DNA of 64,000 nt from a virus: positions 1 through 64,000 of IMG/VR virus record IMGVR_UViG_3300028800_000074; one strand, written 5' to 3'. Positions 18,050-38,397 of the stretch are shown piece after piece. The position numbers were made by a program, and so were the translations under genes. Position 1 is the stretch's first letter. Every line of letters starts with the position of its first letter. Under the pieces are notes generated by a model that was given only the letters and a program-made list of their open reading frames with translations, did not search any database and was not told the DNA's origin.

Positions 18050-19585
18050 ATGGCCCTCGCCGCTCCGGTCATGTCTGACGAGGCGGTTTACGACCTGCTC
18101 CGCCGCCACGCCCCCGCGTCCGTGGTTGGCTACCTAACCTCCACCGCTCGTGAGCAGGAGGAAGAGGGCAACGCAAGGCTCGCGGAACAGTTTCGTCGTC
18201 AATGTGCGACGATGATCGGTTTCACAGAGTATCGCTATGCGCGATACGTCACAGCGCCGCATCACAAGCTCGTCTCTGAACAGCTTGAGCGCGTCGAGCG
18301 TCGAGAGATCGACCGGCTCATCATCGAGATGCCTCCCCGACATGGGAAGTCGGAGCTGGCCTCGAAGAGCTACCCGTCATGGTGCTTGGGCCGCAACCCG
18401 ACGAAACAGATCATCTCCGCCTCGGCCGCGAACGATCTGGCGCAGGACTGGGGCAAGTGGGTCCGCAACATTGTCGCCAGTGACGAGTTCAGATTGGTCT
18501 ACCCCGGCGTCGAGCTTGCCGAGGACAGCCGGGCCGCAGGAAAGTGGCAGACAAAGCAGGGCGGCATCTATGTCGCCGCGTCGGTTGGCACCGCGATCTT
18601 GGGCCGTGGCGCAGACGAGTATCTAATCGACGACGCGTTCGGGAGCATGCAGGACGCCCGCAGCGAGACGATCCGAAACTCGGTGTGGGAGTGGTACAAC
18701 GGCACCGTCTACAATCGGCTCCAGCCGGGCGGAGCAATCATCATCATCGGCCACCGCATGCACGAGGACGATCTCGCCGGGCGGCTCATTGAGCGCATGA
18801 AGGCTGGAGACGGCGCGGATCAGTGGACGATCATCCGGCTCCCCGCCGTCGCGGAAGCGCCGACGAAGGAATATCCCGAGCCCGACCCTCTGGGCCGCAA
18901 GCCCGGCGAGGCGCTCTGGCCAGCCTCCTATCCGATCAAGGCGCTCGAACGCATCCGAGCGAACACGCAGCCGCCGCGCAACTGGTTCGCGCTCTATCAG
19001 CAGCGGCCGACGCCTGACGAGGGCGCGATGTTCATGCCGGACAAGATCACGATCCGGAAGAACTCGAACACGTCCGACGTGGTGGTCTGGGTCCGAGCGT
19101 GGGACTTGGCGGCGAGCGTGGATGGGGACTGGACGGTCGGCGTGCAGATGGGGCGCACCAGTAGCGGGAAGATCGTCATCGGGCACGTGCGACGCCTCAG
19201 GGGCCGCCCAGAGGCGGTTTCAGAGGCCATTGCAGCTCAGGCCCGGCTTGACACGATCAGGGTCAAGATTGCGCTTCCGATTGACCCCGGTCAGGCCGGG
19301 CTCGCGCAGAAGTCCGCCTTCGTCAAACTGCTCAACGGCTTCCGGGTCGACTTCAGCCCGGAGAGCGGCGACAAGGAGACGAGGGCCGAACCGTTCGCGG
19401 TGCAGGTCAACAACGATAACGTCGAGATGATGGAAGGCGACTGGAACGCCGCCTACGTCGAAGAGCTTCGCAGCTTTCCCGACGGGAAGTACAAGGATCA
19501 GGTCGACGCATCGAGCCGGGCACACATGGTGCTCATGGCGTCGGGCATGCCGATCAGGATCAACCCGGCGCTGCTGGAGCGCTGA
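18050..19585 (+). CDS. terL: Terminase large subunit
   Basis: 511 residues. The ATPase domain has Walker A PPRHGKS (95-101) and Walker B YLIDD (DD 194-195). The C-terminal RNase H-like nuclease starts at VRAWDLAAS (D352) with D358/D360 close by, a middle PIDPGQAG block, and a late DQVDASSRA acid motif. The protein powers DNA translocation into proheads and cuts the concatemer. It sits directly after terS with an 11-nt gap, at the head of the late genes. Confidence 0.95.
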   Translation: MALAAPVMSDEAVYDLLRRHAPASVVGYLTSTAREQEEEGNARLAEQFRRQCATMIGFTEYRYARYVTAPHHKLVSEQLERVERREIDRLIIEMPPRHGKSELASKSYPSWCLGRNPTKQIISASAANDLAQDWGKWVRNIVASDEFRLVYPGVELAEDSRAAGKWQTKQGGIYVAASVGTAILGRGADEYLIDDAFGSMQDARSETIRNSVWEWYNGTVYNRLQPGGAIIIIGHRMHEDDLAGRLIERMKAGDGADQWTIIRLPAVAEAPTKEYPEPDPLGRKPGEALWPASYPIKALERIRANTQPPRNWFALYQQRPTPDEGAMFMPDKITIRKNSNTSDVVVWVRAWDLAASVDGDWTVGVQMGRTSSGKIVIGHVRRLRGRPEAVSEAIAAQARLDTIRVKIALPIDPGQAGLAQKSAFVKLLNGFRVDFSPESGDKETRAEPFAVQVNNDNVEMMEGDWNAAYVEELRSFPDGKYKDQVDASSRAHMVLMASGMPIRINPALLER

Positions 19586-20388: not shown

Positions 20389-22530
20389 ATGAAGGCCAGT
20401 CAGCTTCTTGCCGCTGCGTCCCTCCTCCTCGCCATTGGCGCGGAGACGCCAGCCTTCTCATATCCAGCAGGCTACGGCCCTCCAGCTTTGCCGTCAGCCT
20501 CGTTGCCGATCAGGCCGGAGTGCCTTCAGCCGCCGACGAGCTTCACCAACGTCTGGCACTTCGACGCGGTGAACGGCAAGCCGCCGAACTACCTTCAGGT
20601 CGCGGGCGCTTACGGCCCGATCATCATGTCGCCGACGACTGTCCCTACCGGGCAGACCATGAAGGCCTATATCGCCACATGGAACGGCTCAGCTTGGACG
20701 CAGGTGCTGACCACGTTCACCGCTGGTCAGGTCATCCCGGTCAGCGGCAACGGCTCTCTGGCCGCGCCTTGGAACGACGTGTCGGCCGTCATGTGGGCGA
20801 GCGCGAACGCCAAGGCTGGATACAGGTGGCCGCTGCTCGCGACCGTCCCGAGCTACCAGTACGTGGTCGGCAAGGGCTATGTCTATGCCAACGGCGGCGT
20901 GAACGGCGGCGTCCAGCAGTCGGGCCCGATCCTGCCCGGGGACGAGATTTTACTCGCGACCGGGAACTATGGCGCGGTCAGCTTCAATCTTCCGACCATC
21001 GAGGTCGTCAACAGCGGCTTCGTGACGATGGCCGCCGAGCCGGGGCAATCGCCCGTGATCGCGTCGCTTGTCCTCGCCGACACCAACAAGTGGCATTTCG
21101 ACGGGATCAAGTTTCAGTCGATGGCGGGCGTCCTTGCCAGCGTGAACGACGGCGGCGGCGCGGCTGACCAGTTCGGCAACCCGCTGGTCACCAGCGACAT
21201 CATCTTCACTGCAACTGACTTCTCCAACGTCGACGACTTGGTCGCGAACGGGTGGACGCAGGTCCAGTGGCGCAGCGCAACGAGCGGCTTCCAGTCGCAG
21301 GGGAGCAACGACGGCGCGAATACGAGATGCGTCTCGGTCCTCGCCAGCCATGCCCACAATCTGCATGAGGGCATCACGATCAATTCGAACTACTCGGTCG
21401 CGTCCTATGACGAGATCAACCGGTTCACTGACAACGCCCTGAGCCACGATGGCTCGTATCAGATTTTCGACGTCAACTTCACGCATGACCCGGTCGACGT
21501 TGGGCTCGCGTACCACGTTGACGGCTCGCAGCAGGAGGGCTTCGCGCTTCTCCCCGGGCAGACGTGGATCACCTACACCGACATCGAGAAGAACAACGGC
21601 CTCTTCATCGATCATTACGATCCGACGAGCCCGTTCGCCACGATCTGCATGACGGGGATGGATGACTACTCCGGCGTCGGCTACGTCATCGTCAAAAATC
21701 TGCGCATCCAAAACAATGTTCATATCTCGTGCGGGACTGGTGAACTCTACGAGCTGAACATCCAAGACTCGATCATCTCGAACAACACGGTTGTCCCAAC
21801 GAACCCGGCGCAGAACCCCCTCCCGGGTATCTCGCTGACGCTGACGAACAATTCAAACAGCCGGGTTTGCAACAACATCGCGCCGAACATCGTCGTCGCC
21901 AACAATCAGCCCGGCGTCACGTTCGACAACAACGTCGCCGTTCAGTATGCGGCCTATATCCAGAACGCCGACGGCTCATGGCCCGCGAGCGCGAGCTTCC
22001 TTCAGGCCTATGGCTGGTGGGACACGACCGGCCACTACAGCGCGACGCAGACGGCCGCCGCCAACAACCAGACGATGTCGATTGCGTCGTTCATGGCGCT
22101 CTTCAATCAGGCTCCGACCGGCGTCCCTCCGACCTATGACGTCTCGCTCAAGCCGGGCGCAACGACCAACGGGTCGGCGAGCTGCGGTCCGCAGACGAAC
22201 ACGGCCGGGCAGCTTCGCGCCTACTGGGTGAACTACACTGCGGCCGAGACGGCGGCGATGGCGCAGGACGCGATCTCGGCTGGAGACCTTACTGCGGCCA
22301 ATGTGGCGACGCAGACGGCGAACGCGTCGGCCTCGACGGCGGCGACGGACGATCAGGCCACGGCTGCGGCCAAGGCGATCTCGGACGCTGCCGACGCTCA
22401 GGCGGCGACGGACGCTCAGACGGCGGCTCAGGCAGTCACCACGTCGAACGCGGCTCAGGCTCAGGCCGCCACGCTTGACAACGCGGCGGCTGCGGCCGGT
22501 GCCGCGCCTATGGCCCCCGGCGCATACTGA
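20389..22530 (+). CDS. Exported beta-helix-type protein with Ala-rich C-terminal coil
   Basis: 713 residues. The first ~24 (MKASQLLAAASLLLAIGAET, then PAFS) are a clear Sec signal peptide. The middle, about 170-520, is a repetitive beta architecture (GDEILLATGNYGAVSF, then NSGFVTMAAEPGQSPVIA, then NKWHFDGIKFQSM) typical of right-handed parallel beta-helices, as in pectate-lyase-like or tail-spike proteins. The last ~95 residues are Ala/Thr/Gln-rich and helical. Sitting between terminase and portal, it could be a secreted depolymerase or adhesin. A signal peptide is odd for a virion protein. Confidence 0.72.
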   Translation: MKASQLLAAASLLLAIGAETPAFSYPAGYGPPALPSASLPIRPECLQPPTSFTNVWHFDAVNGKPPNYLQVAGAYGPIIMSPTTVPTGQTMKAYIATWNGSAWTQVLTTFTAGQVIPVSGNGSLAAPWNDVSAVMWASANAKAGYRWPLLATVPSYQYVVGKGYVYANGGVNGGVQQSGPILPGDEILLATGNYGAVSFNLPTIEVVNSGFVTMAAEPGQSPVIASLVLADTNKWHFDGIKFQSMAGVLASVNDGGGAADQFGNPLVTSDIIFTATDFSNVDDLVANGWTQVQWRSATSGFQSQGSNDGANTRCVSVLASHAHNLHEGITINSNYSVASYDEINRFTDNALSHDGSYQIFDVNFTHDPVDVGLAYHVDGSQQEGFALLPGQTWITYTDIEKNNGLFIDHYDPTSPFATICMTGMDDYSGVGYVIVKNLRIQNNVHISCGTGELYELNIQDSIISNNTVVPTNPAQNPLPGISLTLTNNSNSRVCNNIAPNIVVANNQPGVTFDNNVAVQYAAYIQNADGSWPASASFLQAYGWWDTTGHYSATQTAAANNQTMSIASFMALFNQAPTGVPPTYDVSLKPGATTNGSASCGPQTNTAGQLRAYWVNYTAAETAAMAQDAISAGDLTAANVATQTANASASTAATDDQATAAAKAISDAADAQAATDAQTAAQAVTTSNAAQAQAATLDNAAAAAGAAPMAPGAY

Positions 22531-22541
22531 CCATCTGATCG

Positions 22542-25500
22542 ATGGCAGCGCGTAAGCGGCCGACCTCATCCCCCCGGGTGAGGCCCGGCATCCATATCTC
22601 GGCGGCCCTCCAGTCCCGTATCCTGCGGGCCAAGGACGGTCCGAGCTACGACCCGTTCAAGCCCTACGTTCACGATCAGGCGCTGCACCCGCCCGGCGTA
22701 ACGATGGCGATGGACGACGCCTACAACTCCTTCAGCCCGACGGCTGGGTGGTCGGTCCGCAGCCTCGGCAGCGCTATCGCCGAGGGGCAGGTCTTCCTCG
22801 GCTACCCGACCTTGGCCGCGTTGCTTCAACGCGTCGAGTACATGAACGCGGTCATGTCCTACGCCGACGACATGACGCGGAAGTGGATCGAGTTCAAGGC
22901 GAGCGCCGGGACCGACAAGCAAGAGCGCATCGACGCGATTACAGACAAGTGGGACGCGCTTCAGGTGCAGGCGCGGATGAAGGATCATATCGCGCAGGCT
23001 CTCGGCTTCGGACGGGCGCACGTCTATCTCGACACGGGCGACACCGATAATCCGGACGAGCTGAAGAAGGACATTGGCGACGGCGCTCGGTCTGCCGCCA
23101 CGGCGTTCAAACTCCCGGGCAAGAAGGTGCTCGGGCTCAGGACGATTGAGCCGGTCTGGGTCAGCCCGCACGACTACGAGACCTCGAACCCGCTCAAGCC
23201 GAACTGGTACAAGCCCAACGCTTGGCACGTCATGGCGCGCGAGGTTCATGCGAGCCGTCTTCTGACGACCATCCCGTTCCCGGTCTCCGACTTGCTCAAG
23301 CCCGCCTACTCGTTCGGCGGCATCCCGCTCATCCAGATGGGCAAGCCATACGTCGACAACTGGCTGAACGTCAGACAGTCGACGACCGACATCGCCGAGG
23401 CCTACTCGATCTTCGTGCTTGCGACGAAGTTGCAGGACACGATGGCTGGCGGCAACGGAGACCAAGAAGTCCTCAACCGCGTGGCGCTCTTCAATCGATA
23501 CCGCTCTAACAAGGGCACGATGGTCATCGACAAGGAGACCGAGGACTTCAAGAACATCTCGGCCAATGTGTCCGGCATCGAGGCGATCCAAGCCGCGTCG
23601 CAGGAGCATATGAGCGCCGCATGGCGCATCCCGCTGGTCAAGCTCACCGGCATCTCGCCGTCCGGGCTCAATGCATCGAGCGAGGGCGAGATCAGGGTCT
23701 ATTACGACCTGATCCGGAGCATGCAGGAAGGCCTCATCCGCCCCCTGCTCCAGATCGTCCTCGACTTCACGAGCATCGAGCTGTTCGGCGACGTCGATCC
23801 GGATATCACGTTCGACTTCGTCAAGCTCTTCGAGGTCACCGAGGTTGAGGCGGCCCAGATCAGGTCGGCCGATGCGCAGACCGGCACGGCGCTCATCCAG
23901 TCCGGCGTGATCTCGACCGAGGAAGAGCGGGCCCGCGTCTCCAACGACCCGGACAGCCCGTACATCGACCTCAAGGACACGCCGATCCCAGTCATGCCGG
24001 GCCCAGCCCCGGGTGAAGAGGGCTACGTCGGCGATCCGGATAACTGGCAGACCGCCCTCGAAGGGATCAACAAGCTCGGCGGCCTCCTGCCAGCGCCGGA
24101 GCCCGAGCAGCGCGCCTCACCCGGCGCATGGGAAGGGGTGCTCAAGGGCGTTCTCGCCAACGGTGGGCTTGAGAACCCGGACAACGACGGCATCGTGGCC
24201 TCCCCCGAGGCATGGAAGGCCGTGGGGGCGGGTTTGTCCGCTTCCGGGGGTCTCAGCACCCCAGACGGCTCCGAGGCCGTCCAGCAGCCTCTTGAGCCCG
24301 CCATAAGGCAGGTGTTCGGCAAGGACGCGCTCGAAGACGAGCCGCGCAAGGGTGCCGGGCAGGCTGGCGGTGGCGAATGGACGGCTCAGAGCGGCGGCGG
24401 CGCTCAGAAGTCCGCGCCCGGGAAAAATGGCATTATTGCCGGTAATAATCCGGCCAAGCGTCCCCACGTCGCGCACTATGATCCGAAGGCGACGCAGGTC
24501 GACGCACAGGGCGTGGTTCACACCACGTCGGTCGTCGACGCCGCCCGGGCGCTCTATGACGGCAAGAAGGTCGACCTCAATCAGCCGAGAGAGGTCGCAA
24601 CACTCGTCGACCATCTGGGCCAAGTCGCGAAGCATATGATCGCGATGGGCGATGCTGCGCCGAACTTCAACCTGTGCAACGTCAGCGTCGACAACACGAA
24701 CATCTTCTGTGCGGTGAGCGAGGGCATCCCTCGCATCGACATGCCGCAGCTCCCGCCGAACCTGCACCCGTTCTTGTCGTTCCTCGGCGAGAAGGGTCTC
24801 GGCTTCCAGCCCGCGATGGAAAAGGCTGGCTACCTCAGGGCGACGCAGAACGAGCTGATCGGCGCTAAGGTCGCGGCTATCGCCAAGGCGTTGCAGAACA
24901 TCGATCCGCGCAAGCTCGACCCGCTCGTGGTCAGCAAGGACAACTATATCGTCGACGGTCACCATCGCTGGTCGGCGGAAGTGGCGATCTCGGCTGAGCA
25001 AGGCAACTTCGACCGGCCGCTCGAAATCTATCGCGTCAACAGCGACATCTTGCCGCTGCTCAAGCTCGCCAACGACTTCACGGGCGGCAAGGGACATGTC
25101 GCCGGATCGCTCAAGCCGGGCGAGGCTGCGCTGAACCTGAAGACCGAGAACCATTTCCTTGATGGGGAGACCCACGCGCACGACGGCCGCCCTTTTGGCC
25201 TTGACGAGGCTCGACCGAATCAGGCCATGGATGACTTCAGCCCGTCAGAACCGCGCAAGGGCGTGGGACAGGCTGGTGCAGGGGAGTGGACGGCGGAGGG
25301 TGGGGCTGCGGCTCCTTTTGGCAAAGGCAAGCAATCCGAGCCTTCCGCCGCTTCTCTAAGCGACAAGATCGTCTCAACCCGGAACGTGACAGCCAAGTCC
25401 ACCAAGGGCGAGGCCGAGGGCAAGTACCTCCGCATCGACACCGATGCGATGAAGGCTGACCCTGAGCTGTTCAAGCACAACGTCGGCCTCTTCAAGCGCG

Positions 25501-26627
25501 GCGACCTCTACCCCGGTATGAAGCCCGACGAACTGAAGGGCTCCGAGCAAGAGGTCGCCAAGGCCGTCATCGAGCGCATGCGCGACAACCTCGACTTCCT
25601 CGTCGGGATGGTGCCGAAGGACAAGATCAAGGCGTGGGCGCACTGGTATGAGGGGGCGCACAAATTCGCAGAGGACTTCGGCAAGAAGTATGGCGTCGAC
25701 ACGGCGAGCGCGGCAGGCGTGATCGCGGCCCTCTCGCCGCAGAGGCCGTGGGACGAGAACGTCTACTTCGCGGATCGCGTGATGGACATCATGAAGAACC
25801 ATCCCCACGACAAGTGGGACGACGCGATGAAGTCGACCGGCGAGAGGATTTGGACGAGCGCCAAGAACGCGCCGATCCTGAAGGCCATCGAAGGCAAGCG
25901 CCTCGACGAACTTGACGACCCAGTCGCTCAGGCGGCGTGGATCAGGACGTGGAACGAGGCGCACGAAGACCGCAAGTTCGAGATCGCGAAGCCGGACGGC
26001 ACGTTCGGCGGCAAGATGAAGACGGCGGCCGGAGGCTATGACACCGCGTCATGGGGATCGCTTGCGCAGACCGTGAACGCGATCCACGCTTTCCAGAGCG
26101 GCGGCGACCCGAAGAAGCTCTCCGCAATCTTGGGTGAGAGACACAAGGTTCGCAGCTTCTACAACAACATCATCGCCCCTGATGATCCTAACGGCGACGT
26201 GACGGTCGATACGCATGCTGTTGGAGCGGCGTGGTTGCAGCCGACCTCGGGGACTTCCGCTTCGGTCTGGCACAACCTAGCTAACAATCCGGGCGCAGAG
26301 GGCAAGGACCCGTTCCGGCCGAAGAACTGGGTAGCAGCCAAGGGCTCGGCGAAGCTCGGCGTGAGAGGCACGTATCCGCTCTATGCCGACGCCTATCGAG
26401 AGGCGGCGAAGGATTTGGGGCTCAAGCCCCGCGAGGTTCAGTCGGTCGCGTGGGAGATGAAGCAGCGCCTGTTCAGCGACAAGCTGACCGGCGAGAGGGT
26501 TCAGAAGGCCGTCAACGAGGTCTGGGAAGACTACCGTGACGGCAAGCTCTCGCTGAAGGATGCGCGAGAGAAGGTAGTCTCGGTCGCGACGGCTATGCGC
26601 CCCGACCACAAGATCGACTTCAACTGA
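22542..26627 (+). CDS. Portal (DUF1073 type) fused to a ParB/Srx-like domain and a third helical domain
   Basis: 1361 residues, about two to three times a normal portal. Residues ~60-490 fit the DUF1073 portal family (GWSVRSLGSAI; AFKLPGKKVLGLRTIEPVWV; SPSGLNASSEGEIRVYYDLI). After an EPRKG-x(6)-GEWT linker (E600), a ParB/sulfiredoxin-like domain carries LDPLVVS and VDGHHRW (804-810). A second EPRKG linker (E903) leads to a C-terminal helical domain with AALSPQRPWDEN (~1063) and TVDTHAVGA (~1220), a pattern I recall from uncharacterised phage proteins. The portal ring anchors the packaging motor. The appended domains may act inside the capsid or be ejected with DNA, by inference. Confidence 0.85.
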   Translation: MAARKRPTSSPRVRPGIHISAALQSRILRAKDGPSYDPFKPYVHDQALHPPGVTMAMDDAYNSFSPTAGWSVRSLGSAIAEGQVFLGYPTLAALLQRVEYMNAVMSYADDMTRKWIEFKASAGTDKQERIDAITDKWDALQVQARMKDHIAQALGFGRAHVYLDTGDTDNPDELKKDIGDGARSAATAFKLPGKKVLGLRTIEPVWVSPHDYETSNPLKPNWYKPNAWHVMAREVHASRLLTTIPFPVSDLLKPAYSFGGIPLIQMGKPYVDNWLNVRQSTTDIAEAYSIFVLATKLQDTMAGGNGDQEVLNRVALFNRYRSNKGTMVIDKETEDFKNISANVSGIEAIQAASQEHMSAAWRIPLVKLTGISPSGLNASSEGEIRVYYDLIRSMQEGLIRPLLQIVLDFTSIELFGDVDPDITFDFVKLFEVTEVEAAQIRSADAQTGTALIQSGVISTEEERARVSNDPDSPYIDLKDTPIPVMPGPAPGEEGYVGDPDNWQTALEGINKLGGLLPAPEPEQRASPGAWEGVLKGVLANGGLENPDNDGIVASPEAWKAVGAGLSASGGLSTPDGSEAVQQPLEPAIRQVFGKDALEDEPRKGAGQAGGGEWTAQSGGGAQKSAPGKNGIIAGNNPAKRPHVAHYDPKATQVDAQGVVHTTSVVDAARALYDGKKVDLNQPREVATLVDHLGQVAKHMIAMGDAAPNFNLCNVSVDNTNIFCAVSEGIPRIDMPQLPPNLHPFLSFLGEKGLGFQPAMEKAGYLRATQNELIGAKVAAIAKALQNIDPRKLDPLVVSKDNYIVDGHHRWSAEVAISAEQGNFDRPLEIYRVNSDILPLLKLANDFTGGKGHVAGSLKPGEAALNLKTENHFLDGETHAHDGRPFGLDEARPNQAMDDFSPSEPRKGVGQAGAGEWTAEGGAAAPFGKGKQSEPSAASLSDKIVSTRNVTAKSTKGEAEGKYLRIDTDAMKADPELFKHNVGLFKRGDLYPGMKPDELKGSEQEVAKAVIERMRDNLDFLVGMVPKDKIKAWAHWYEGAHKFAEDFGKKYGVDTASAAGVIAALSPQRPWDENVYFADRVMDIMKNHPHDKWDDAMKSTGERIWTSAKNAPILKAIEGKRLDELDDPVAQAAWIRTWNEAHEDRKFEIAKPDGTFGGKMKTAAGGYDTASWGSLAQTVNAIHAFQSGGDPKKLSAILGERHKVRSFYNNIIAPDDPNGDVTVDTHAVGAAWLQPTSGTSASVWHNLANNPGAEGKDPFRPKNWVAAKGSAKLGVRGTYPLYADAYREAAKDLGLKPREVQSVAWEMKQRLFSDKLTGERVQKAVNEVWEDYRDGKLSLKDAREKVVSVATAMRPDHKIDFN

Positions 26628-27096: not shown

Positions 27097-27440
27097 GATC
27101 GCAACTGATCATCGTGTTCACGGTCGCCTCTCTGGGCCAATCGGCCTCAGCGCACGCTGGCGACTGGACCGCGCAGGTCGTCGAGCGAACGCAAGGCGGG
27201 CCAGCGGCGGTCTGTAACGGTGAGCAGAGGATCGTCGTCACGAAGAAGCGTGACGGCACCTTCGTCATCGACGGGCCGACCTGCCTTGTTCCAAGAGCGC
27301 CTGCAAATAGCTGGGCTCCTCCGCCTCCGAGGCCGCCGAGCAAGACGGTCCCTCGAAGGGTCTACCACGAGCGCTATGAGCGGCCTCACCACAAGGGTCG
27401 CGCAGGGCTGTTCGACTTCCTGTTCGGTAAGCACCAATGA
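27093..27440 (+). CDS. Small exported protein, unknown
   Basis: 115 residues with a signal peptide (MRSQLIIVFTVASLGQSASA, cleavage near residue 22). There is no lipobox cysteine. The mature part has two Cys, a Pro-rich stretch (APPPPRPPSKTVPRR) and a basic end. It overlaps both neighbours by 4 nt. It could work in the periplasm with the upstream coiled-coil membrane protein, by context only. Confidence 0.6.
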   Translation: MRSQLIIVFTVASLGQSASAHAGDWTAQVVERTQGGPAAVCNGEQRIVVTKKRDGTFVIDGPTCLVPRAPANSWAPPPPRPPSKTVPRRVYHERYERPHHKGRAGLFDFLFGKHQ

Positions 27441-29107
27441 ACACGCCCGGCTCCATCGCCGTCCTCAAGTTCATGACGGAGAACGACATCCCGCTCACCC
27501 GGGAGAACTTCGTCAACACGAACTGGGGCGGCAACCCGCCTCGCCCGTGGGACGCCGAGGCCGAAGAAGAGATACCACTGGAGCTGGCCGAGTTCGGCGA
27601 GCCGGAAGAGAACCGCGAGCTTCTGGAAGACCGTGGCGACCTCGCTGGCGACGACTGGGCCGTGATGGCATCCGGCAAGATCGTCGAAGTCCCCGCTGGC
27701 ACCAAGGCTGGCGACACAGCCCCGGACATCTGGGCCAAGGACGCCTTCGACCCGCAGGAGCCGCGCAAGGACGACGGCGAGTGGACGTCGGGAGGCGGGG
27801 GCGGCGGAGCGAAGGCTGAGAAGGAGCCGGTCGTCGACGTGCCCGCATATGAGTGGGCGAAGCGTCAGATCGACAAGCACACGAAGAACAGCAAGCTGCG
27901 CGCCAAGCAGCACGAGTGGATGGCGCGGCACAAGCAGAACGTCGACGCCTTCTTCAAGAAGAGCGACATCAAGGTCGCGCTCGACAAGGTCGCCAAGGAT
28001 GCGACATCGACCACGTCGTTCACCGTCGGCGCGGCGCTCAATAAGGGCGCGGACGTCGTCTCTGATGCGCTTCAGGACGCCTTGATCGCGGTGGCGGTCG
28101 GAGCTGGCGTCGCAGCCTTCGGCGTCGGAGGTTGGCAGGTCGCAGGATCGGCGGCGCTCGCTTACGCGGTCGAAGAGCTTGGCGACTGGCTCGGGCTCAC
28201 GCCGGAGAACGCGGTCAAGCTCATCAAGGCCGGAGTGCAGGAGATCGGGAAGGCGCTGAAGAAGCGCCCCCAGAAGGACGAGAACGACGACGGGATGTTC
28301 AGCCTTCTGTCGGCTCTCCCGTGGGATCACCCGGTCGACCCGAAGACGAACCCGTTCATCGAAGGCGAAGAGTTCGTGTCTCCGAACGTCAAGACTGGTC
28401 TCGATCTTCAGGACGCGATCAAGGAGACGACGTCGCCGCGCCACAAGACGATGATCAAGGCGGCGCGCGACATCAACAAGCTCATCGGCTTCGAGAGCGA
28501 AGAACACTCAGCGATTGGCGCTTGGCTCGACGGCGCAGAGAACAGCGTGATGTCTGTCACGCACGGCGCGACCATGGCTCAGCTCAGGACGGCGGCGGCG
28601 ATGGAGGGGGCGCTTGCAAACCAGCGCTCGGTGATGATCGTCAACGAGAACGTCGGCGGCAAGGGGCTGCTCTATCACTTCGACGTCAAGGGCGACGTTC
28701 AGTCGATCCACGACGGCTTGCTGGCGAGCGGCGTCGAGTTCCACACCATCGTTCCTTCCGCCGACGGCAAGTTCACGGTATATGTCGCCTCGGCTGATTC
28801 GTCACAACGAGAGTTCAAGGCGGTTCAGAAGGCGGCGGAGCGCTTCAATGCCAAAGTCGAGTACCACAGGGTCGACGCCGAACTCGTCGGATCGGACAAA
28901 GAAGACGGCACCGACGCCGAGCAGCGAGAAGACGCCCAGTCCCGTTACGGATCAATCATTGAAGGCGGCGGGGTTCAAGGAGCCAAAGCCATCTGGGGCC
29001 GGGTTTATTCTCGGTACAAGGCCGCCTTCGAAGACAGAGCCGTAAAGAAGCCTCGTGAAGAGAGGCCGCCGTGGCGGACGCAACAGGCTGAGGGGGCGAG
29101 AGCGTGA
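27437..29107 (+). CDS. Virion-associated protein with EPR linker, unknown
   Basis: 556 residues. An acidic N-terminus leads to the EPRKDDGEWTSGGG linker at 108-121, like those in the portal fusion and the DUF2213 protein. A helical segment with a hydrophobic stretch follows (LIAVAVGAGVAAFGVGGW). The C-terminal ~150 residues (AIGAWLDGAENSVMSVTHGA, then SVMIVNENVGGKGLLYHFDV) form an alpha/beta domain that I have seen in other phage head-associated proteins but cannot name. Possibly a capsid cargo protein. Confidence 0.65.
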   Translation: MNTPGSIAVLKFMTENDIPLTRENFVNTNWGGNPPRPWDAEAEEEIPLELAEFGEPEENRELLEDRGDLAGDDWAVMASGKIVEVPAGTKAGDTAPDIWAKDAFDPQEPRKDDGEWTSGGGGGGAKAEKEPVVDVPAYEWAKRQIDKHTKNSKLRAKQHEWMARHKQNVDAFFKKSDIKVALDKVAKDATSTTSFTVGAALNKGADVVSDALQDALIAVAVGAGVAAFGVGGWQVAGSAALAYAVEELGDWLGLTPENAVKLIKAGVQEIGKALKKRPQKDENDDGMFSLLSALPWDHPVDPKTNPFIEGEEFVSPNVKTGLDLQDAIKETTSPRHKTMIKAARDINKLIGFESEEHSAIGAWLDGAENSVMSVTHGATMAQLRTAAAMEGALANQRSVMIVNENVGGKGLLYHFDVKGDVQSIHDGLLASGVEFHTIVPSADGKFTVYVASADSSQREFKAVQKAAERFNAKVEYHRVDAELVGSDKEDGTDAEQREDAQSRYGSIIEGGGVQGAKAIWGRVYSRYKAAFEDRAVKKPREERPPWRTQQAEGARA

Positions 29108-29313
29108 CGCTCGAAGAAGAGCTTTTCAAAAGAGCGCAGCTTGAGGCTGAGGCGGATCGCATCCTCAGCATCGGCATCGCGCATAATCGAAAGGTGCAGC
29201 GAAACGCCAAGCGCCTTAAGCACTGGACTGGGGGCCGCCTCACCACGGCCGAGATCAATCAGATGACGGCTGAGATGAGGGCGAGGGCTGGTGACGGCAA
29301 GGTTCTCGGGTAA
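29104..29313 (+). CDS. Small helical protein before MuF
   Basis: 69 residues from GTG 29104: MTLEEELFKRAQLEAEADRI, then a basic segment HNRKVQRNAKRLKHWTG. It overlaps the previous stop by 4 nt and the MuF-like start by 23 nt. No family was recognised. Confidence 0.6.
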   Translation: MTLEEELFKRAQLEAEADRILSIGIAHNRKVQRNAKRLKHWTGGRLTTAEINQMTAEMRARAGDGKVLG

Positions 29314-30214
29314 GTGGTGCGGGCAGCCTTACGGCAAGCCCAGCGTGCTGCTCACCCTTCCAAACCTCATGGGTCTCGACGCCAAGGCGTCAGGGAAGCC
29401 CGCTGGCGGCCGTCGGCCGTCCGTCGCGGTAGGCAGGCCCCTGCATCCGAACCTCGGTCTGGCGGCCTCCTATGGGGCGCGGCTGACCTCTCTGATCGAC
29501 GAGATGCACCGGAGCGTTATCTATTGGCTCAAGGCCGAGTATCGAGCTAACCCACCAGCGACCATGGCGTTCGACGATCTCGCATCGAAGACACTGGCCG
29601 AGACGATGAAGGGTTTGGCGAAGCGGTGGCTAGGACGCTTCGATGAAATGGCGGAGAGGCTGGCCCGTTATTTCGCCCAGTCCGTATCCAAGCGGACCGA
29701 CGACGCGCTCAGGAAGATTTTGAGCGACGGCGGCATGGCGCTCAGGGACTGGAAGACGACCGCCGCCCAGAAGGATGCGCTCGCGGCCATCGTCCACGAG
29801 AACGTGTCGCTGATCAAATCGATCCCGCGCGAGTATCTCGGCAAGGTCGAGCGCGACGTGATGCGGTCGGTCGCGGCCGGTCGAGACCTGAAGCAGCTCG
29901 AAGACGATCTTCAGGCACACTTCGGGGTGACCCGAGACAGGGCTAGGCTGATCGCGGTCGACCAGAACAACAAGGCGACGGCGATGCTGCGCCGCGTCCG
30001 CGCCGTCGAGGCGGGCACGTTCACATGGGAGTGGATGCACTCCAGCGCAGGCAAGACGCCGCGCCCGACGCATCTCGCGGCCGGACGTCGTGGCCAGCGG
30101 TTCGACATCCGAGAGGGATGGTTCGATCCGCATGAGGGCCGCAAGGTTCAGCCGGGCGAATTGATCCGGTGCCGATGTACTTGCCGACCGGTTTTCCCCG
30201 GCCTACCGTCCTGA
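29291..30214 (+). CDS. MuF/SPP1 gp7-like minor head protein
   Basis: 307 residues from GTG 29291. The C-terminus has the head-morphogenesis signature: TWEWMHSSAGKTPRPTHLAA, then PGELIRCRCTCRPV, with the CRC motif. The helical centre (DQNNKATAMLRRVRAVEAGT) fits too. MuF proteins bind the portal and affect head assembly and DNA ejection. The gene lies downstream of the portal as usual, with two genes between. Confidence 0.88.
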   Translation: MTARFSGKWCGQPYGKPSVLLTLPNLMGLDAKASGKPAGGRRPSVAVGRPLHPNLGLAASYGARLTSLIDEMHRSVIYWLKAEYRANPPATMAFDDLASKTLAETMKGLAKRWLGRFDEMAERLARYFAQSVSKRTDDALRKILSDGGMALRDWKTTAAQKDALAAIVHENVSLIKSIPREYLGKVERDVMRSVAAGRDLKQLEDDLQAHFGVTRDRARLIAVDQNNKATAMLRRVRAVEAGTFTWEWMHSSAGKTPRPTHLAAGRRGQRFDIREGWFDPHEGRKVQPGELIRCRCTCRPVFPGLPS

Positions 30215-35940: not shown

Positions 35941-38397
35941 ATGCGTCGACCTGTCGGGTTCGCCCGAGCGCTTGCGCTCGACGACTTCAATGCGGCTGAG
36001 CCTCGCGCCAACAATGGCCAGTGGGCAGCGGCTCCGGGCGGGGGCTTCACGCTCAGGCCAGACGCGGCCAGTGCCGCTACCCGTTACAGAAGGGCAACGG
36101 AGCGAGCGCAGTCTGCTCTGCCTGACGACGACGAATATCAGCGTCTTCTGGAGCAGGGGCGGAAGCTCGAAGGCCTGAAGGCCGCCGTCCGCGATCCCCT
36201 GACCGGGAAGATCATGACCGGGCGTGATCACAACGCGGCGTTCTACTCGCACGATAAGGATGCGCAGGCGCGCATCAAGGCGACACTGACGCCCGGACGA
36301 GACCCGGTGACGAACGTCGCGACCAATAGGTGGAACTACGAAGGGCCAAACGTCGGCTTTACTCGTGGTGGATCATTTTTCTCGCGTCAGCAGGTCGAGG
36401 ACATGCTTAAGGCGCGCGATGATCAGGATTTATCCGAAGCGCTTCACGGTGCCTCCTACGAGGATGTGCGCTCGAAGCGCAGTTCAATCGCCAGCACCAT
36501 CGCCCGCTTCCATAATCGTGAGGGCGGAGAACCCATGTTCGGTGGAGATCGAAGGAAAGTGTTCGCGCACGACGCAATCGATGCAGAGATGGCGTTCGAT
36601 GAAGCCCAGACCACGCGATCTTATGATCCGTTCGGTCGGCTCAACCTCGACCTGACGCCGATCTCGAAGGCGACCGTCAATCCATATCAGGGGAAGGAAA
36701 TCCCCGACTGGCAGAAGCTCAAGCTTGACCCCGAAAAGGTCTACATGCTGCTTCGCCATCCCGACGAACTGAAGCGCGCAGCCGCGAGCTTCAACAATGT
36801 GCCGCTGCTCTATCGTCACAAGCCGACGAGCGCCGAGAACCATCCACGCGATCTCGTTGTGGGGACGACCGGCGAGCGCGCAGTTTATCAGCACCCCTAC
36901 CTCTACAACTCGATGTCCGTCTGGGACGACAACGACGGCATCGAGGGCATCGAGAACAACAAGGCTCGCGCTCTCTCGTGTGGCTACGCCTATGACCCGG
37001 ACATGAGGCCGGGCGTCTACGAGGGGCAGCGTTACGACGGCGTGATGCGCAACATCAGGGGCAATCACGTCATCCTCACAAAGGAAGGCCGCGCCGGGCC
37101 GGACATCATCGTTGGCGACTCAATGGAGAACCTCAACATGGCAACTGCACCGAAGCTTTCTCCGGTGGCATTGGTCGCTCGAAGGGCGGTCAGGCAGCAC
37201 CTTACGCCGCTCATGGCGGCCGACGCGGCGATTGACATCACGCCCGCCTTCGTCGGCCTCAAGCAGCTCGACGAGCGATCCCAGCAGATCGTTCACGCGC
37301 GGGTCGGCCAGCTCGTGCGCGGCAAGCTCAACGCGGCGCTGGCGATGGACGATGTGAGCGCCGGGCTCCGTGCGCTGCTCGAAGCGCTTGGCGGAGGCGG
37401 CGAGCCCGACATGGGCGGCGGCGTCGACGACGTCTCCCCTCCCGGGACCGAGGCCGAGGGCATGCCCGAGACCGACCTCGCGACCGGCGCAGAGCCGGAC
37501 ACGATGCAGCTCGAAACCGACGCCGCTCCCCCGGAGGATACCTCTGGCGGCAACGACCCGCCTCCGATGCAGGGCGCTGGCGGCGATCCGGCTGCGATGG
37601 AGCAGGCGGGTCCGGCACCGCAGGGCGGCGAAGGCGCGGCAGGACCGATTGAGAAGGTCCGCAGCTACCTCATGACCGTCCTGAACCCCGCCGAGATGCA
37701 GCATCTCGAACTCCTCATCTCCGAAGTCGACAGCGGCGACGGAGGGGAGCCGGACCCGACCATGCAGGCGGGAGGCTCAGAGAAGCCCGGTGGCGGCCAT
37801 CCGCCGATGGCCGGTGCTGGTGGACCTCCCGGCCCCGACAAGGGCGCTGGCGGGCCTCCTATGGCCGCTGGCGGCCCTCCCAAGCCTCCCGGCGCTGGCG
37901 GACCTCCGCCGAAGCCCGGCGCGGGTGGGCCTCCCGATCCCAAGAAGCAAACCGGGGATAACCCCCCTCGAACCGCAGGAACGCCGCAGGTCGGCGGAAA
38001 GGACAGAAACATGGCAGGTGATCAGGCCTTCGTCAGCCGGGCCGACCTTCAGGCTGCGCTCGCGGCGAACGACAAGCTCCATCGTGAGCGTGCGGAAGCC
38101 CGGGCTTTCATCCGACCGTTTGTCGGGGAACTCACCGGGCTCGCGATGGACGCGGCTCCGAACGACGTCATCAAGGCCGCGCTCAAGATCAAGGGCATGT
38201 CCGACGCCGACCTGAAGCCAATTCAGGACACGGCCGCGCTCAAGCTCCTGCTCGGCGCTCAGTCGAAGGCCGAAGCGTCGCGTGAGAGAGCGCCCCGCAT
38301 GGCGCTCGATTCGAAGGCGACGTCGAAGGACGAGCCCTTCAGCATCGAGGCCGTCACCGGTCTCAAGAACTTCGGAAGGATCGGACGCGCGGCCTAA
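35941..38397 (+). CDS. DUF2213 prohead protease fused to scaffold-like region, with EPR module
   Basis: 818 residues. The EPRANNGQWA linker is at 20-29, so the first part is a short module of its own. About 220-410 fits DUF2213 (KLDPEKVYMLLRHPDELKRA; LLYRHKPTSAENHPRDL; GNHVILTKEGRAGPDIIVGD), a family annotated as phage head maturation protease. After 440 comes a Pro/Gly-rich linker (PPMAGAGGPPGPDKGAGGPP) and a helical C-terminus like a scaffold. The enzyme would cleave head proteins while its tail scaffolds the prohead. It precedes the decoration and capsid genes. Confidence 0.82.
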   Translation: MRRPVGFARALALDDFNAAEPRANNGQWAAAPGGGFTLRPDAASAATRYRRATERAQSALPDDDEYQRLLEQGRKLEGLKAAVRDPLTGKIMTGRDHNAAFYSHDKDAQARIKATLTPGRDPVTNVATNRWNYEGPNVGFTRGGSFFSRQQVEDMLKARDDQDLSEALHGASYEDVRSKRSSIASTIARFHNREGGEPMFGGDRRKVFAHDAIDAEMAFDEAQTTRSYDPFGRLNLDLTPISKATVNPYQGKEIPDWQKLKLDPEKVYMLLRHPDELKRAAASFNNVPLLYRHKPTSAENHPRDLVVGTTGERAVYQHPYLYNSMSVWDDNDGIEGIENNKARALSCGYAYDPDMRPGVYEGQRYDGVMRNIRGNHVILTKEGRAGPDIIVGDSMENLNMATAPKLSPVALVARRAVRQHLTPLMAADAAIDITPAFVGLKQLDERSQQIVHARVGQLVRGKLNAALAMDDVSAGLRALLEALGGGGEPDMGGGVDDVSPPGTEAEGMPETDLATGAEPDTMQLETDAAPPEDTSGGNDPPPMQGAGGDPAAMEQAGPAPQGGEGAAGPIEKVRSYLMTVLNPAEMQHLELLISEVDSGDGGEPDPTMQAGGSEKPGGGHPPMAGAGGPPGPDKGAGGPPMAAGGPPKPPGAGGPPPKPGAGGPPDPKKQTGDNPPRTAGTPQVGGKDRNMAGDQAFVSRADLQAALAANDKLHRERAEARAFIRPFVGELTGLAMDAAPNDVIKAALKIKGMSDADLKPIQDTAALKLLLGAQSKAEASRERAPRMALDSKATSKDEPFSIEAVTGLKNFGRIGRAA

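Follow-up and report, generated by a model that had tools for sequence, protein, structure and literature searches.

A phage portal protein joined through a recurrent linker motif to ParB/Srx-like and DUF7178 domains

Results

Layout of the portal ORF

The DNA analyzed here, referred to as the window, comprises 64,000 nucleotides, positions 1 to 64,000 of the 79,131-base virus record IMGVR_UViG_3300028800_000074 in IMG/VR. On its plus strand, one uninterrupted open reading frame (ORF), 22542-26627, encodes 1361 amino acids (aa). The encoded protein consists of a DUF1073 portal, a first copy of a linker motif, a domain resembling ParB and sulfiredoxin (Srx), a second copy of the linker, and a domain of Pfam family DUF7178. 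A preliminary description of the window, made without database searches, had proposed that a portal is joined here to two further domains, and family matches to all three parts now appear in frame. The motifs it quoted were located as well: DGHHRW occupies aa 805-810, AALSPQ lies near aa 1062, and TVDTHAVGA lies near aa 1221. Third-position GC content lies between 0.73 and 0.90 in every 408-base slice of the ORF. An assembly chimera is unlikely because the frame is single and open, this coding signal is high throughout, and the portal, ParB-like, and DUF7178 parts each have independent homologs in that same frame.

The portal core, DUF1073/Phage_portal_3, occupies approximately aa 1-490 (22542..24011). 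It matches Pfam model PF06381 over aa 90-447 and model positions 3-354 of 357 (E 7e-73, 245.8 bits against a curated cut-off of 33.8), and the PHROGs portal family phrog_146 matches the ORF with E 3e-94. Matches to the DUF1073 portal were found in 613 phage records. The core is followed at approximately aa 491-599 (24012..24338) by a spacer rich in Pro and Gly, in which the translation shows two copies of an ASPxAW..GGL repeat. Most of 37 related DUF1073 portal loci have no extension beyond the core.

The linker motif

A motif scan places linker 1, EPRKGAGQAGGGEWTA, at aa 600-615 (24339..24386, plus strand) and linker 2, EPRKGVGQAGAGEWTA, at aa 903-918 (25248..25295, plus strand). An EPRKG...GEWT linker preceding each extra domain had been noted earlier, and the starts at aa 600 and aa 903 agree with it. 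The DNA of the two copies differs at synonymous sites, which suggests a peptide under selection rather than one recently copied. Across 36 scanned genes of the window, the pattern EPR..G(E/Q)W occurs four times, versus 0.024 in shuffled sequences. Two of the four sites are those in the 1361-aa ORF, one is in the ORF that begins at 27437, and one is at the N-terminus of the head maturation protease; the last two are in head ORFs beyond those named in the preliminary description.

The search was extended to 1815 genes from related loci (numbered here with the prefix L), where a strict form of the motif occurs 33 times versus 0.75 in shuffles and a looser form 70 times versus 0.5; these loci were chosen as relatives of the cargo or the portal, and the counts are not a measure for phages at large. 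The conserved form may be written FDPxEPRDxxGRWT, with FDPSEPRDEHGRWT or WEESKHPRDEDGKF as typical instances across the related loci. The motif precedes cargo domains, including those in free ORFs that have only a short leader upstream of it. A leader of about 55 residues is common to some of the free ORFs, among them examples in L035 and L102 and the window ORF at 27437.

The middle domain has a predicted ParB/Srx fold

The middle domain, approximately aa 643-859 (24468..25118), includes the DGHHRW motif and matches the ParB-like PHROGs family phrog_2859 (E-values of 1e-20 and 7e-22 recorded). A structural model built from an alignment of 13 relatives had a mean predicted local distance difference test score (pLDDT) of 80.5. 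When this model was compared to the Protein Data Bank (PDB) by Foldseek, ranks 1-30 were all ParB, Srx, Noc, or Atu1540, with the first four at probability 1.00, a value reached for ParB-N structures, and E-values starting from 2e-3. VIA-align, used for re-alignment of Foldseek candidates, gave 25 rows from the ParB/Srx superfamily, free serine kinase and SbnI included, with Z from 8.2 to 5.8, while the next, unrelated row scored 3.3; the best of these (Z 8.2) had a root-mean-square deviation (rmsd) of 3.2 over 94 residues. By both comparisons the modeled domain has the ParB/Srx fold, and the label first given to it is right at the level of fold.

Searches of PDB sequences with this domain returned weak rows only, led by lincosamide transferase and free serine kinases. 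The Pfam model ddrB-ParB (PF18763), applied to eight records with a permissive initial screen, gave no match at E 10, and hmmscan gave none at E 1, so the domain may represent a branch separate from DdrB-like ParB. In an alignment of its relatives, the DGHH motif is strongly conserved. Relatives of the domain reside in virions: one is ORF101 of Dickeya phage LIMEstone1, described as a 'confirmed structural protein', and another is a segment of Pseudomonas phage H66 gp60, a giant protein of the virion that mass spectrometry has verified.

DUF7178 resembles HhH-GPD glycosylases in predicted fold

The third domain, approximately aa 959-1361 (25416..26624), matches Pfam model PF23802, DUF7178, described in Pfam as of unknown function, with E-values of 6e-25 and 1e-26 recorded and 94.8 bits against a curated cut-off of 27; so do all 61 of 61 aligned members. 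An alignment served as query in the search for relatives, the first alignment having proved too diverse for scanning. In IMG/VR, 586 of 599 pattern-matched stretches encode a DUF7178 relative, and 18 more relatives were found in contigs from bacterial or archaeal genomes. A single-sequence query with the domain found no relative in viral contigs, its patterns being too specific. Searches of PDB sequences, by single sequence and by profile, found no match.

The model of DUF7178, made from 60 relatives aligned with the window sequence (61 total), had a mean pLDDT of 94.6 and a predicted template-modeling score of 0.91. A Foldseek search of viral models with it returned other phage proteins only, mostly uncharacterized. 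Re-alignment by VIA placed Qng1, AGOG, or OGG1 at every one of ranks 1-12, the only clear structural matches, with a similar overall helical fold in these alignments. The proteins at these ranks form one group of base-cleaving enzymes that have the HhH-GPD fold in common. The best was Qng1 (DUF2419), at Z 8.7 and rmsd 4.4 over 222 residues, followed by AGOG at 7.8 and several OGG1 entries at 6.7-5.2. The next row was the phage enzyme PUGT at 3.4, which we take to belong near the HhH-GPD glycosylase group, and unrelated rows began at Z 2.7.

All 61 aligned sequences share Lys1202, Asp1223, and His1225 without exception, and Trp and Gln residues are also invariant across this diverse set. The Lys and Asp are kept even in short, solo forms of DUF7178 from Microbacterium and Anabaena phages. 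In AGOG and OGG1, Lys and Asp at the corresponding positions are the catalytic pair (PMC9638937), and the Asp of OGG1 follows its Lys by about 20 residues, as in DUF7178. Lys1202 and Asp1223 are therefore candidates for a similarly placed pair, a correspondence drawn from sequence order and spacing because the VIA output provides no residue map.

Several results weigh against kinship with the glycosylases. Foldseek itself found no significant match to the DUF7178 model in PDB, its top rows being unrelated helical proteins, and a Z of 8.7 is little above the level that unmatched models reach. Alignment of DUF7178 profiles by hhalign with Nth, MutY, and AlkA showed no link, and large insertions further set DUF7178 apart from Qng1, AGOG, and OGG1; the missing residue map likewise counts on this side. 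DUF7178 thus probably belongs to the HhH-GPD group, but at the level of modeled fold only, since sequence profiles do not connect it to Nth, MutY, or AlkA. PF00730 did not match the window protein or the aligned DUF7178 members. Models for Qng1 (PF10343), applied to 200 genomes, and AGOG (PF09171), applied to one archaeal genome, gave no match, with the controls likewise silent. Separately, a solo copy of DUF7178 in Microbacterium phage Cece was named 'glycosylase' by its depositors.

Structure prediction and fold comparison of both extra domains, proposed in the preliminary description, thus returned ParB/Srx matches for one and, through VIA, glycosylase-like matches for the other. The suggestion made there that the domains are potentially DNA-acting is in keeping with the likely HhH-GPD glycosylase fold of the third domain's model.

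Both domains occur in other arrangements

Relatives of the mobile ParB/Srx and DUF7178 domains are found alone or recombined in head-gene ORFs of many phages, as read from ORF scans of the related loci. Several of the arrangements include a domain with the working name GAENS, first seen at aa 310-523 of the window ORF at 27437. In L039, a single ORF with three linkers has the order ParB-GAENS-DUF7178, while L031 and L102 encode DUF7178 and ParB in separate nearby ORFs. L045 has portal-GAENS-DUF7178, as does L067, where the 5' end is cut, and L164 has portal-GAENS followed by a divergent DUF7178 (E 3e-4, below cut-off). Relatives fuse GAENS directly before DUF7178, and the two share an ORF in eight loci, of which three are nearly the same. 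Family searches with GAENS gave no convincing match. Other related DUF1073 portals are found with an ADP-ribosyltransferase (L142, E 9e-14) and with a weak match to MPTase-PolyVal (L144). In phages CRP-738, zth2-2, and LS06, DUF7178 is part of large ORFs adjoining portal or internal virion genes. The preliminary description called the fusion the largest oddity of the late region; it is indeed unusual, but it is not unique, given portal-enzyme fusions in the literature and the further portal fusions detected here.

Some additional observations were made in these loci. The divergent DUF7178-like domain of L164 (L164:9976-11328) shows K..F..N and MD motifs, arranged in a similar order. Roseobacter phage CRP-738 (L021:8882-11389) combines DUF7178 and a methyltransferase-like segment in one ORF, as LS06 does. 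Burkholderia phage BcepNY3 (L184:2716-4803) encodes a 695-aa DUF1073 portal, annotated as NUDIX hydrolase in GenBank and as portal protein in RefSeq; it is a probable portal-Nudix fusion in a cultured phage. Small ORFs with a conserved FNLPVTRENYLGLAYPEG (L064:7107-7535, L076:8848-9285, and similar) overlap the ends of DUF7178 ORFs in another frame and are possible overlapping genes.

The surrounding head genes

The head gene block runs, by start position, from terminase (18050) through the portal (22542), the ORF at 27437, MuF (29291), the protease (35941), and a minor head protein (38447) to the major head protein (39472); terminase, the portal, the ORF at 27437, MuF, and the protease lie on the plus strand. 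The large subunit of terminase (18050..19585) matches phrog_38 with E 2e-94. The separate cargo ORF at 27437..29107 consists of an N-terminal leader, a linker at 27758, and the GAENS domain at 28364-29005. The MuF-type minor head protein (29291..30214) matches PF04233 (E 6e-9) and phrog_324. The head maturation protease (35941..38397) matches phrog_2229 over aa 215-433 (E 2e-95) and has an N-terminal extension with the linker EPRANNGQW at 35998. This extension, about 200 residues (35941-36564) with the linker near its start, has no Pfam match. Between terminase and portal, at 20389-22530, is an ORF of 713 aa that starts like a signal peptide and has no PHROGs match, an unusual site for an apparently secreted or surface protein. 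PADLOC found no match to a defense system.

Discussion

We consider it reasonably probable that the 1361-aa protein of this tailed phage is a portal serving as carrier for two virion cargo enzymes, a 'polyvalent protein' in type, and that these are delivered with the DNA. Portals are present in twelve copies per capsid, and in known portals the C-termini point into the capsid interior, so the fusion should place both modules inside the head, where procapsid assembly around the portal would incorporate them. Because its conservation exceeds what a passive tether requires, the linker may serve as an element recognized in loading or processing, most likely a site at which head maturation machinery cuts or docks and so frees or positions each module; a parallel is the cleavage of leaders from internal proteins of T4. 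The modules would then accompany the DNA into the host and act at an early stage, DUF7178 as an N-glycosidase that cleaves bases or nucleotides with its Lys/Asp pair, and the ParB/Srx domain as a nucleotide-dependent nuclease or nucleotidase. Jointly, the two could damage host DNA or counter a nucleic-acid-based defense, with host DNA, tRNA, or nucleotide signals as possible targets.

Delivery into the host is judged the most likely role, since virion proteins other than the portal also contain the modules and since published portal and MuF fusions of the same design are read as packaged in the head and injected (PMC5512222, PMC9503650). The preliminary description had left a choice between ejection with DNA and action in packaging; relatives of the domains in virion or polyvalent-type proteins favor the former, as do these published readings, and no support for packaging was found. 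A more specific proposal is tentative, and we regard it as rather doubtful in full: the dodecameric portal would bring both a ParB/Srx nuclease and a base-excising enzyme of glycosylase fold into contact with packaged DNA, and FDPxEPRDxxGRWT would be a general signal by which interchangeable cargo is loaded or processed on portal, protease, or free leaders.

Delivery also faces contrary points. Most related DUF1073 portals carry no extension, and by that comparison the C-terminal extension is dispensable for head assembly. Cleavage of the linker by a protease is a candidate mechanism only, and the record yielded no MPTase domain; activity, presence in the virion, and injection are predictions for this phage.

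A weaker alternative is that the domains stay on the portal and check, repair, or modify phage DNA during packaging or exit. The modules are attached to the protein of the DNA channel, both fold superfamilies include members that act on nucleic acids or nucleotides, and one of the weak fold matches of DUF7178, PUGT, is an enzyme of hypermodification. However, a location at the vertex is not required, because the modules also occur in separate ORFs and in giant virion proteins, and, of the genes examined, only one, for a DNA methyltransferase, is a modification gene; action at the vertex therefore seems unlikely. It is less probable still that the extension is an internal barrel or core aiding DNA spooling or ejection, in which enzyme-like folds have decayed. 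About 860 extra residues in twelve copies would make a large internal mass, of a sort most related portals do without, but the invariant Lys, Asp, His, Trp, and Gln of DUF7178 and the conserved DGHH speak against decay, and the two folds are mutually unrelated and shuffled.

Equally improbable to us is cargo aimed at competitors or superinfecting phages, as with the MuF polymorphic toxins of temperate phages. MuF-toxin fusions are widespread in such phages (PMC5576092), yet the modules described here occur in varied phages, the domains fall outside known toxin families, and no immunity gene was noticed adjoining the ORF, although immunity genes were not searched for. That an assembly or frameshift error fused separate genes into one long ORF, a concern raised in the preliminary description, is the least credible explanation by far. 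The ORF is known from the virus record sequence alone, without reads; against an error stand the unbroken coding signal, the in-frame linkers whose peptides match while their DNA differs synonymously, and the independent occurrence of portal-DUF7178 fusions in L045 and L067.

If the delivery of cargo on the portal is confirmed, DUF7178, a widespread phage family with at least 586 relatives in IMG/VR, acquires a testable prediction of fold and active site. The linker would be a peptide tag that can be moved between proteins and identifies virion cargo, usable to find further injected phage effectors from sequence alone, and it may give a simple means of loading proteins into capsids.

As far as the literature searched shows, the linker motif, the fold proposed for DUF7178, and the pairing of these two domains appear new; no mention of DUF7178 was found there. 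Enzymatic fusions to portal, MuF, and protease have already been described. The MuF polymorphic toxins (Jamet et al. 2017, PMC5576092) likewise attach C-terminal domains of varying type to a head protein whose gene adjoins that of the portal, whereas in the present ORF the portal is itself the carrier and no recognized toxin domain is part of the cargo. In the portions of their paper drawn on here, Iyer et al. (2022, PMC9503650) describe fusions of Nudix and ART domains to Portal, MuF, and the capsid-processing peptidase, and infer packaging in the head followed by injection. Those carriers are the same three head proteins; the cargo domains differ, and those portions do not mention a shared linker motif. 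Passages from an earlier paper (Iyer et al. 2017, PMC5512222) report 2H and PBECR domains fused to portal and MuF, and ParB/Srx domains in polyvalent proteins. With 2H, PBECR, and Nudix fusions published, at least in these excerpts, cargo fused to a portal is of a known kind. The 2017 passages do not mention DUF7178 or the glycosylase fold, the ParB domain here gave no match to the ddrB-ParB model, and a search of this record for an MPTase domain found none. Polyvalent proteins as those passages present them likewise combine several unrelated enzymatic domains per polypeptide among virion genes, and the 1361-aa ORF, with at least two functionally disparate domains in one polypeptide encoded in a virion gene block, falls within that definition.

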